A stretch of 8,059 nt of DNA, taken from the NCBI GenBank assembly GCA_020342025.1, contig CP070840.1, positions 2,850,904 to 2,858,962 of the forward strand, read 5' to 3'. How positions within the stretch are numbered: the stretch's first letter is position 1; the number at the start of each line of letters is the position of its first letter. Below the pieces are notes generated by a model, which was not told where the DNA came from, did no database searches, and saw only the letters and a program-made list of their open reading frames with translations. Shown here in pieces: positions 2,815-8,059 of this stretch. The position numbers and the translations under genes were made by a program. Source of the stretch: Deltaproteobacteria bacterium. Its GTDB lineage: Bacteria > Desulfobacterota > DSM-4660 > Desulfatiglandales > HGW-15.

Positions 2815-3522
2815 ATGAAAATGATTATGAGAGGAGCAGTCCTCATCGTCCTAGCCTCTACAATGCTTGCTTGTGCGTCCATGTCTAGCACAACAGATGA
2901 ACCCATCGTACAGCAATTATTGGTTGATGAGGCACGTGTTGTGGTTGACACATTCGCCGCCGACCCAGATATGGCATGGTTCCGAAACTACTTAAAGGAT
3001 GCCAAAGGCGTTTTGATTGTCCCTGATTTGTATAAAGGGGCTTGGTTTCTTGGTGGCTCAGGTGGTAGGGGTGCGCTTGTGGTGAGAGATCAGGAGACGG
3101 GCAAGTGGGCCGGACCCGCTTTTTACACCATGGGATCAGTAAGCTTTGGTCTTCAATTTGGCGGTCAGAAGTCGGAGGCAATTGTTCTTGTAATGACGGA
3201 AAAAGGCATAAAATCCCTACAAAAAACATCTGTCAAGCTTGGGGGAGATGTTTCCGTAGCTGCAGGGCCCATCGGTATAGGTGCCCAAGGTGCAACGGCA
3301 CCAAGTTTGAAGGTGGACTACATTACCTTTGCCCGTTCCATGGGAGCATTTATCGGCATATCCCTAGATGGTGCCGTCATAGATGAGAATTATGATTGGA
3401 ACAAAGCTTATTATGGAAAACCAGTAAGGCCAGCGGACATCCTTGTGAGCCGTGGTGTCACCAACCCAAATGCTGCCAAGCTCCGCTCGGCTGTGACCAA
3501 AGCCTCAGTGAGTGCGCAATAG
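2815..3522 (+). CDS. SYLF/Ysc84-domain lipid-binding lipoprotein
   Basis: A 235-residue exported protein with a SYLF domain, a fold known in eukaryotic Ysc84/SH3YL1 for binding phosphoinositides and common in proteobacteria as a periplasmic or membrane-anchored protein of unclear role. Residues 1-19 form a signal peptide (basic MKMIMR start, then a hydrophobic run) ending in MLAC, with C20 as a plausible though imperfect lipobox Cys. The domain runs from about residue 60 to 205. It includes DAKGVLIVPDLYKGAWFLGG (62-81), GGRGALVVRD (83-92), FYTMGSVSFGLQFGGQKSEA (103-122), the Gly/Ala-rich VSVAAGPIGIGAQGA (147-160) and SLDGAVIDENYDWNKAYYG (183-201), all typical of the family. The ATG at 2815 is chosen because GGAGGG (2805-2810) is placed correctly for it. 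The in-frame ATG at 2803 lacks such a site and would add four residues before the signal peptide. Family is confident; function is not known. Confidence 0.9.
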   Translation: MKMIMRGAVLIVLASTMLACASMSSTTDEPIVQQLLVDEARVVVDTFAADPDMAWFRNYLKDAKGVLIVPDLYKGAWFLGGSGGRGALVVRDQETGKWAGPAFYTMGSVSFGLQFGGQKSEAIVLVMTEKGIKSLQKTSVKLGGDVSVAAGPIGIGAQGATAPSLKVDYITFARSMGAFIGISLDGAVIDENYDWNKAYYGKPVRPADILVSRGVTNPNAAKLRSAVTKASVSAQ

Positions 3523-3605
3523 GGATGGATGGTCTAGGAAGGGAGGGTCATCACGGACCTGCTTTCCAGTTTCTGAAGATGGAGATCACAGGGGACCGGA
3601 GAAAT

Positions 3606-4124
3606 ATGGCAGAACCGGGTAAAGTTCATCGGATTGAACTGAATGTGCAAGGTATGACCTGAGCGGGTTGAGAGCCGAAGGTGGTGCGCGCTCTGGAAGA
3701 GCTGCCAGGAGTGAAGGAAGCCTATGCACATTTTCCGGAAAAAAGGGCTGTCGTCATTTATGACCGGGATTCGGTGACAACGGACCAGCTGAGTCAGGCT
3801 TTGCTCAAAGCGGGGTATGTTGCAAGTCCCCAAGGAAACGAGGAGACGACACGTACGATCAGCCCCCAGGAGTCAGGGCAGACAAGGGAACATCAGATAC
3901 AGGACCTTATATGTTATTGTTTTGCGTTTACGAAACAGGACATTGAACAAGATCTTATGAAAAATGGCCGCTCCCTGATCATGGAAAAGATCATGACAGA
4001 GAAGAAGACAGGGGGTTGTGACTGCAAGAACCTGAATCCTAAGGGTGGGTGATGTCTGTCCGATGTCCGCCGGGTGGTGGAAGAGGCCATGGACCAAACT
4101 AATCTCAAGAGAAGAGGTTTATAG
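3606..4124 (+). CDS. Probable selenoprotein metallochaperone: HMA domain plus CopZ-type Fe-S domain, three in-frame TGA (Sec) codons
   Basis: Read through three TGA codons (3660-3662, 3669-3671, 4050-4052), this frame gives a 172-residue protein ending at TAG (4122-4124). Residues 7-70 are a heavy-metal-associated domain: VHRIELNVQGMT, then U19-AG-U22, then VVRALEELPGVKEAYAHFPE and LSQALLKAGY. Both metal-binding Cys of GMTCxxC are TGA. After a linker rich in Gln, Glu and Thr (about 75-98), residues 101-165 match the [2Fe-2S] half of CopZ-like metallochaperones: LICYCF (C103, C105), GGCDC (C138, C140), NPKGG, then U149, C150 and LSDVRRVVEEA. Family members have NPxGxCC there, so U149 replaces the first Cys. 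The zinc-binding N-terminal part of CopZ is absent. GGAG (3598-3601) precedes the ATG by four bases; an in-frame ATG at 3579 lacks such a site. Exactly three TGA codons, all at conserved Cys positions, with no TAA, TAG or frameshift, favour selenocysteine over a pseudogene. A soft-metal (Cu, Hg) binding and delivery role is inferred. It starts 83 bases after the SYLF gene and may share its transcript. Confidence 0.82.
3690..3702 (+). promoter_or_regulatory. Candidate bacterial SECIS hairpin for the paired HMA-domain UGA codons
   Basis: GCTCT-GGA-AGAGC forms a perfect 5-bp stem with a loop starting GG. The loop begins 24 bases after the second TGA and 33 after the first. Known bacterial SECIS elements have a small hairpin within a few tens of bases after UGA with G at the start of the apical loop, so one hairpin could serve both codons. 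An alternative pairing uses AGAGC at 3671-3675 with the same GCTCT and leaves a 14-base loop containing GGTGGT. The two structures exclude each other. Confidence 0.5.
4066..4081 (+). promoter_or_regulatory. Candidate bacterial SECIS hairpin after the third UGA
   Basis: T-CCGCC-GGGT-GGTGG-A folds into a 6-bp stem (one G-U pair) closed by the tetraloop GGGT (4072-4075). The loop starts 20 bases after the TGA at 4050-4052. In the E. coli fdhF SECIS, as I recall it, the GGUC loop starts about 19 bases after UGA, so position and loop are close to the model. The element lies inside the coding frame, as bacterial SECIS elements do. Confidence 0.6.
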
Positions 4125-4889: not shown

Positions 4890-4909
4890 ACCCGTTATTG
4901 ACGGGTTTT
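4890..4909 (+). terminator. Weak hairpin after the bactofilin gene, overlapping the next leader
   Basis: ACCCGT-TATTG-ACGGGT forms a 6-bp stem with a 5-base loop and runs into TTTT (4906-4909). The tract is short, so termination would be partial. The Shine-Dalgarno sequence AGGAGG of the next gene starts right after it (4910). It may trim read-through from the bactofilin gene into the exported-protein gene. Confidence 0.4.
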
Positions 4910-7790: not shown

Positions 7791-8059
7791 CTAACTTGGA
7801 GGAATGAAGCGTGCGGCACGAAGGCGGTTGATTGCCGCGGCGATCTCGAATTTGCGAGGACGGGCAAAGCTGCCCGGGTGCCTTTCGGAACGATGGAACG
7901 GGTCCAGGAGATCGAGTCCGTTCGCATCCAAGTAGACCTCAAGCTGATCCAGTATCTCTTTCAAGGGTTTCTTGCCATCCATGAACCGGCCGGCGGCAAG
8001 GTGAATGGCAAGTCCCACGGCACGGGTCTGACTGAAGTCCACCAGTTGCTCCACACCTC
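7791..8059 (-). CDS. Predicted ATPase of the ABC class, C-terminal fragment
   Basis: The frame is open to the right edge, so the start lies outside the window; 89 complete codons are visible, ending in TAG (7791-7793). The visible sequence, VEQLVDFSQTRAVGLAIHLA, then GRFMDGKKPLKEILDQLE, then YLDANGLDLLDPF and ARPRKFEIAAAINRLRAARF, matches my memory of the C-terminus of the PF09818/COG3044 'predicted ATPase of the ABC class'. In that family the nucleotide-binding motifs lie far upstream, so none can be checked here. The conserved PRxFEIAAAINRLR ending is the strongest clue. The cellular role of this family is poorly known. No frameshift or internal stop is seen in the visible part. Confidence 0.65.
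   Translation of the reverse strand, partial: GVEQLVDFSQTRAVGLAIHLAAGRFMDGKKPLKEILDQLEVYLDANGLDLLDPFHRSERHPGSFARPRKFEIAAAINRLRAARFIPPS

Follow-up and report, generated by a model that had tools for sequence, protein, structure and literature searches.

A predicted selenoprotein joining an HMA domain with two selenocysteines to a CopZ-type 2Fe-2S domain with a third

The stretch of deltaproteobacterial DNA analysed here (8,059 nucleotides, hereafter the window) contains on its forward strand a frame of 172 codons (3606..4124), which runs from an ATG at 3606 to a TAG at 4122 and is interrupted by exactly three internal stops, all of them TGA. The question raised by this locus is whether these codons are the scars of a damaged gene, the sign of an altered code or the positions of selenocysteine (Sec, U) in a hitherto overlooked protein. 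Re-reading of the frame placed the three TGA codons at residues 19 (3660..3662), 22 (3669..3671) and 149 (4050..4052), in agreement with the original prediction of a single frame broken by TGA only. A Shine-Dalgarno-like GGAG (3598..3601, forward strand), read directly from the sequence, lies 4 nt 5′ of the ATG. With U at each TGA, the conceptual translation reads GMT-U-AG-U at the N-terminal site and NPKGG-U-C at the C-terminal site. UGA 1 and UGA 2 (Sec19 and Sec22) thereby stand at the first and second Cys of a CxxC motif, and UGA 3 (Sec149) at the first Cys of an NPxGxCC motif. Ordinary gene calling does hide the protein, as had been claimed: the standard ORF list offers the fragments 3396..3662 and 3681..4052 in its place. 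The GNAT and CoA-transferase genes of the window, for which normal termination had been noted, both end in TGA, and TAG is the stop of the SYLF, bactofilin, MFS and MBL genes. Promoter-like sites near the gene are about as numerous as in shuffled sequence (two versus a mean of 1.2), no terminator-like site was found near the gene, and an Rfam scan of the window returned a single, sub-threshold match elsewhere than in the gene.

With C substituted for U, two domains can be recognised in the encoded 172-residue protein. The HMA domain with its metal-site motif GMTUAGU (3639..3818, forward strand) matches Pfam HMA (PF00403) over residues 12-71 with an E-value of 1.4e-13 and 51.5 bits (cut-off 24.8), and an HMA fold is also present in the model of the predicted structure. 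In the proposed reading its metal site is UxxU at the CxxC positions, with Sec for Cys. The CopZ-type 2Fe-2S (BFD-like) domain (3906..4082, forward strand; CYC..CDC..NPKGGUC) matches Fer2_BFD (PF04324) over residues 101-159 with an E-value of 2e-5 and 25.2 bits, just below the cut-off of 26, and a profile comparison of this Sec-containing domain with 14 Cys proteins of the CopZ family gave a match of 99.6% probability. In the fold search with the whole protein HMA domains crowded out other matches, and the Fe-S half was therefore folded separately. Its matches to solved structures are weak (best E 0.063, among the best 60 of 120), and the rows of this search are beta-2-microglobulin or its fusions plus one light-chain entry (best 60 of 120). 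A chain of alignments leads to a solved structure via L060, a Cys relative of the Fe-S half of CopZ_CC type that matches 2hu9 (E 3.3e-14); along this chain C103, C105, C140, U149 and C150 correspond to Cys 75, 77, 109, 118 and 119 of 2hu9. Cys 75, 77, 109 and 119, the counterparts of C103, C105, C140 and C150, are what we take to be the cluster ligands of 2hu9.

The same three codons recur in related genes. Four relatives' genes from four other genomes, with 42-57% protein identity to the window, have TGA at the same places in 12 of 12 cases, so that the window and L131, L132, L133 and L134 together show TGA in 15 of 15 cells, that is in all five genes at each of the three sites. L134 starts at a contig end, its start codon thus lying outside the sequence, and in L132 and L134 a fourth TGA terminates the frame and was taken as the true stop. 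Neither TAA nor TAG nor a frameshift, which the original prediction had associated with a pseudogene, occurs in the four full-length relatives' genes seen as DNA. The TGA codons of the relatives at the same places and a Cys at site 22 of the database protein P0109 also bear out the earlier placement of the TGAs at conserved Cys positions.

Altogether 138 distinct database proteins, the window's own fragment P0002 among them, were aligned to the frame (protein search, best 120 of 126 matches; profile search, best 120 of 290). Full-length sequences account for 14 of these, with W,W,W at the three sites in 13 and W,C,W in P0109. In 118 of the 124 fragments the first residue falls within 23-33 and the last is 148; P0052 and P0108 extend from residue 20 to 148, the latter with Cys at site 22, and four end elsewhere in the alignment, P0078 and P0094 of these with NPKxx as judged by eye. 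From the genes seen as DNA we infer that Trp in the database relatives stands for TGA; the three Trp of the full-length entries are probably false. An all-Cys full-length relative was not found among the 138 retrieved proteins (best 120 of 126 and of 290). Site 22 is variable, being Cys in P0108 and P0109 and apparently Ser in P0052, which suggests that the two Sec residues of the HMA domain are not strictly coupled.

A genome search found 81 stretches encoding relatives, 80 of which were kept. Two viral contig loci, L138 (a standalone GxUC gene) and L139, bring the set to 82 loci, and 79 of them contain the BFD pattern, as three triple-Sec, 60 standalone GxUC and 16 Cys loci; the third site in the 76 non-triple BFD loci is accordingly TGA in 60 and Cys in 16. 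L001-L003 originate from metagenome-assembled genomes titled Deltaproteobacteria or Desulfobacteraceae, and a fourth triple gene was located in genome G419 by a family search of 46 genomes. Among the matches listed, a gene with three TGAs is present in one of 389 genomes of G001's order, namely G001 itself; further genome sets contain it in two of 85 (G002 and G419) and in one of five (G391). G001, G002 and G391 were chosen for having the triple gene, and only G419 stems from the survey. Eight rows of the standalone kind in the 389-genome listing also contain TAA or TAG, among the matches listed. Plasmid records matched in 346 of 72,556 cases, all below 60% identity, the 15 listed being mostly P-type ATPases. 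Three loci with Actinomycetes or Actinobacteria titles (L066, L067 and L072) encode CopZ-like proteins with TGA at the GxUC position, where Sec would therefore extend beyond the deltaproteobacteria.

For the ten pairs of the five triple genes, the pooled pN/pS ratio is 0.48 overall, 0.52 in the HMA segment (residues 23-75), 0.23 in the BFD segment (99-148) and 0.45 just 3′ of TGA 3 (150-159), and synonymous sites approach saturation in some stretches (pS up to 0.81). The last 13 residues, with a ratio of 1.14, are without conservation.

The relatives' genomes were inspected for the Sec machinery. In all four triple-gene genomes selA scores above the cut-off (control: 1 of 14 known genomes). 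The selD gene is present in three of the four, each time with one in-frame TGA, and is missing from G002 (control 2/14), and selB was found in G001, G391 and G419 and lies below the cut-off in G002 (3/4; control 2/14). These gaps in G002 may reflect incompleteness of its assembly of 2.6 Mb. tRNA-Sec was detected in G001, G002 and G391 (3/3 tested; control 5/14) and was below the cut-off in G003, which has a standalone gene only. In the four triple-gene genomes 19 HMA stretches are listed, and 14 of them are TGA-free, from which it follows that TGA is no general Cys or sense codon in those genomes. Several of the TGA-free stretches sit in open frames of 760-838 residues and, judged by this length, probably belong to P-type ATPases. 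The five HMA stretches with two TGAs are the four triple genes and a separate frame of 78 residues in G391 (G391:C195:9270-9461), found alongside the triple-Sec fusion; it matches HMA and is perhaps a standalone UxxU metal-binding selenoprotein.

The consensus for bacterial SECIS elements comprises a loop of 3-9 nt, a stem of 4-16 bp, a G among the first two loop bases and a spacing of 16-37 nt, according to PMC13188914, and the hairpins found after UGA 1/2 and after UGA 3 both lie within these limits for loop, stem, G and spacing. The putative SECIS hairpin of UGA 3, UCCGCC-GGGU-GGUGGA (4066..4081, forward strand), has its loop 19 nt after the codon, and UCCGCC-[AG]GGU-GGUGGA describes its commonest forms across genes. 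It was assessed in 85 sequences, obtained from 87 distinct matches after two near-identical ones had been dropped; Cys genes lie outside this set because the search pattern required TGA at the UGA-3 site. Standard pairs occupy 93.3% of the pair cells (shuffle mean 89.4%, maximum 91.2%), and 19 cells are compensatory, as compared with a mean of 4.0 and a maximum of 10 in 2000 shuffles, which ignore relatedness among the sequences, and with 0-9 in slid controls, which paired 32-73% of cells. Shuffles also reach as many extra pair types as the nine observed (maximum 9), and 25 of the 85 genes have a non-standard pair at the innermost position. The pair between a silent Val base and the first base of an Asp, Asn, Glu or Lys codon is C-G in 67, T-A in 14 and T-G in four genes.

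Codons within the hairpin show little synonymous freedom (Arg is CGC in 66/66, Gln is CAG in 43/43 and the second Val is GTG in 74/77), whereas codons before UGA 3 or beyond the hairpin draw on most of their synonyms. Residues 150-159 of the five triple genes have a pS of 0.25, as compared with 0.55-0.81 in longer segments. Compared with synonymous resampling, the fold energy at UGA 3 gives z values of -0.9 to -3.1, and the minimum-energy fold contains the hairpin in four of the five triple genes, L134 being the exception.

The other putative SECIS hairpin, GCUCU-GGA-AGAGC (3690..3702, forward strand), has its loop 23 nt after UGA 2 and 32 nt after UGA 1, spacings at which a single hairpin fits both codons. 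All five pairs are intact in 5/5 genes; in L131 and L134 a U-A pair is replaced by C-G, and the protein there has Gly for Glu. The energy of this hairpin is unremarkable (z -0.4 to -1.6, five sequences), and alternative longer stems exist at the site in L132 and L134. The evidence for the UGA-3 hairpin is far stronger than that for the hairpin of UGA 1 and UGA 2, an element common to both codons being weakly supported. The TGA columns shared by the relatives, the Sec machinery in their genomes and the SECIS-like hairpins after the UGAs favour the selenoprotein metallochaperone that had been proposed from the window.

The other genes of the window encode an M20 peptidase, GNAT, CoA-transferase, a SYLF lipoprotein, bactofilin, an unmatched ORF at 4898, an organic-acid-type MFS transporter, an MBL hydrolase and a partial MRB1590_C protein. 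No recognised metal-resistance gene is among the nine window genes checked, and a function has therefore to be carried over from relatives. The MRB1590_C match (E 2.7e-24) is a frame of 87 residues at 7791-8054 on the reverse strand and forms the end of a larger protein at the window edge. A search for an operon common to the triple genes found none, either among the neighbours of L131 and L001 or, by ORF list, among those of L002 and L003. In L131 (G419) a thioredoxin_3 gene follows 228 bp downstream of the triple gene. Upstream of the triple gene of L001 lie presumably FeoAB-like and DtxR-like genes, as read from the ORFs, and downstream an ArsR gene at about 2 kb and a TsoB-like gene at about 3 kb. 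The latter (L001:11401-13221) encodes a rhodanese/DsbD protein behind ArsR that matches NF045694 at positions 130-571 with 790 bits (cut-off 805); an in-frame TGA may separate it from the front part that it lacks.

The 60 standalone GxUC genes (among L004-L072, and L138) are small Fe-S genes with one TGA and appear to encode accessory proteins of metalloid resistance that have been overlooked. At 26 of these 60 loci at least one metal(loid)-type gene is found within 3 kb, the set comprising ArsR, ArsP, ArsC, ACR3, TauE, MerA-like, ArsM-like and thioredoxin_3; each BLAST cluster of neighbours took its family name from a single representative. ORFs less than 1.5 kb from the GxUC gene make up 14/17 for ArsR, 13/17 for ArsP, 9/10 for ArsC, 7/8 for TauE, 4/5 for ACR3, 3/4 for MerA-like, 7/12 for thioredoxin_3 and 2/6 for ArsM-like, as compared with 251/648 for ORFs of any kind; ArsM-like and thioredoxin_3 genes are thus less close than ArsR, ArsP and ArsC. 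By analogy, the GxUC neighbourhoods point to arsenic, mercury or copper handling. The frame of an ArsP-type permease (L029:3034-4221) ends with a TGA and is followed immediately, in the same frame, by a GxUC gene; this TGA may simply terminate translation, or it may encode another Sec and so join the two into a permease fusion. HMA frames also occur close to genes of the Fe-S kind: of the 15 Cys loci checked, 4 (L056, L060, L070 and L073) have one at most 700 nt upstream of the CopZ_CC gene, and in G149 a TGA-free HMA frame ends 58 nt before the GxUC gene. The triple-Sec protein may accordingly be a fusion of such neighbours.

Neighbourhood and domain content bear on the alternative that survives best, although it is unlikely, namely a redox selenoprotein that works as a diselenide or selenylsulfide reductase via UxxU and GxUC and is not a metal carrier. 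The HMA fold with its GMTxxxx loop is typical of metal carriers, the Fe-S domain is of CopZ type and the 26 of 60 standalone relatives described above lie near genes of metal(loid)-resistance type, all of which argues against a pure redox role, even though the thioredoxin_3 gene close behind the triple gene of G419 would suit it. Also in favour of the redox reading, PMC13188914 judges most uncharacterised selenoproteins to be redox proteins and notes UxxU in Prx-like oxidoreductases too. A considerably less probable alternative is partial decoding, in which some UGAs are read as Sec (UGA 3, for example, efficiently) while others mostly terminate and yield a short regulated product. The hairpin support at UGA 3, far above that at UGA 1/2, speaks for such a division, but conserved HMA sequence runs on past UGA 1 and 2 in frame with the Fe-S domain, so that the synthesis of this sequence takes read-through.

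It is highly improbable that the gene is a pseudogene or the product of sequencing or assembly errors, with the TGAs as disabling mutations or artefacts. Three stops in a short frame do resemble decay, and the protein is absent from the standard ORF list; the identical TGA trio is nevertheless kept in 5/5 genes at the identities given above with no internal TAA or TAG, conservation flanks every TGA, and 118 of the 124 database fragments are bounded at precisely these sites. Still less credible is UGA as a sense codon in this organism, with W or G (Trp or Gly) at the sites, for the W seen in full-length database relatives at sites 1 and 3 (14/14) and at site 2 (13/14) is outweighed by the GNAT and CoA-transferase genes terminating in TGA, by the TGAs of the gene itself, which fall at metal-site Cys positions only, and by relatives that possess selA and tRNA-Sec and in whose genomes 14 of the 19 listed HMA stretches are TGA-free. 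In view of the conserved TGA columns and the normal TGA stops in the window, the pseudogene and code-change readings were both rejected.

The reading preferred here is that the gene encodes one 172-residue selenoprotein with three Sec and a metal(loid)-handling mechanism based on the HMA and [2Fe-2S] domains, which the sequence evidence makes very likely. The protein is probably cytosolic. In the mechanism proposed, the SelB/tRNA-Sec system would decode UGA 1 and UGA 2 via the hairpin that starts 18 nt after UGA 2, and the second hairpin would serve the decoding of UGA 3. The N-terminal domain of MerP/CopZ fold would bind a soft metal(loid) ion, Hg(II), Cu(I) or As(III), which would be held between two selenolates in place of two thiolates. 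The C-terminal CopZ-type domain would carry a [2Fe-2S] cluster on C103, C105, C140 and C150, and Sec149, which adjoins the ligand C150, could donate an electron or act as an additional soft ligand. The protein's role in metal(loid) detoxification would thus be to take up the ion, to maintain its reduced state and to deliver it to a partner that exports or reduces it. The CopZ of Archaeoglobus fulgidus is reported to reduce Cu(II) through its Fe-S domain (PMC7558416), which by analogy suggests the redox role proposed for the triple-Sec protein. More tentatively, the protein might be a dedicated diselenolate carrier with its own electron source, in which UxxU grips the ion tighter than CxxC, the [2Fe-2S] cluster and Sec reduce or strip the ion, and one hairpin directs two Sec insertions six bases apart. 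If this were true, anaerobic bacteria would possess, alongside Mer/CopZ, a detoxification pathway that relies on selenium.

Both Sec motifs have been listed before. The available part of a 2026 inventory of 119 selenoprotein families (PMC13188914) includes a UxxU metal-binding protein with two Sec, the CopZ form 1 GxUC with one Sec and a single family with three Sec, ArsM/AhpD; the HMA and CopZ-type triple-Sec fusion is absent from it. PMC9312934, in the part available, lists the UxxU and GxUC motifs separately, and nothing like the fusion appears in the available parts of PMC5322559, PMC2147054, PMC8318568, PMC2398784 and PMC12013277. A literature search yielded no recognised description of the fusion; an earlier one is possible, likeliest in Haft and Tolstoy 2025 (mSystems). 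The caution in the original prediction that Sec in HMA-like domains might already be described was thus justified, UxxU and GxUC each being known as predicted selenoproteins, and its impression that the triple-Sec architecture is undescribed agrees with the lack of an entry for the fused protein in the same part of the inventory. The new part appears to be the fused triple-Sec protein only.

What the fusion adds is a conserved protein whose entire two-residue metal site is predicted to be Sec and which is joined to an Fe-S domain with a third Sec, a small but concrete case for the question why some metal-handling proteins use Sec. A single hairpin serving two UGAs six bases apart would, moreover, inform the understanding of Sec decoding. 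The gene is easily overlooked, since database entries show either a middle fragment of about 123 residues, named 'copper chaperone CopZ' or 'cation transport ATPase' by some sources, or a full-length protein with three Trp.

In order to compare the protein with curated families, NCBIfam models were considered. Sixteen families are reported, all below their curated cut-offs, among them CopZ_Nterm_CC (NF047645; 51.7 bits versus 100, positions 76-137 of 138 matched) and MerT_CopZ_Se (NF045683; 32.6 bits versus 375, positions 156-228 of 235). The best match for the N-terminal part (E 1.6e-16) is NF041115, the UxxU metal-binding (seleno)protein or 'putative mercuric reductase' with two Sec, in which both Cys of the HMA-type metal site are likewise Sec. 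Unlike the triple-Sec protein, however, this model of 74 positions lacks an Fe-S domain, and with 60.2 bits versus a cut-off of 95 the triple-Sec protein falls outside NF041115 by the curated rule.

CopZ family form 1 (GxUC, one Sec; cd10141) has the same kind of C-terminal domain and the same Sec position, NPxGxUC, and its GxUC motif is found here as NPKGGUC in a CopZ-type BFD domain. In the available part of the inventory it is listed with one Sec and without HMA, whereas the triple-Sec protein adds the HMA domain and two Sec. The arsenite methyltransferase/AhpD family (NF041537) likewise combines three Sec and two Sec domains in one protein, but the domains are unrelated.

MerP and the CopZ/Atx1-type chaperones possess CxxC and no Fe-S domain, as opposed to UxxU plus an Fe-S domain in the triple-Sec protein. 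The CopZ of A. fulgidus, of which 2hu9 is the N-terminal domain, resembles the triple-Sec protein in that HMA is joined to an Fe-S domain, but it uses Cys only where the latter has Sec at three sites. In A. fulgidus CopZ the Fe-S domain is situated at the N-terminus, ahead of HMA. Its zinc site is named in the title of a paper cited in PMC7558416. In the triple-Sec protein, by contrast, HMA (residues 12-71) precedes BFD (residues 101-159), and the zinc-bearing N-terminal part of A. fulgidus CopZ is missing.
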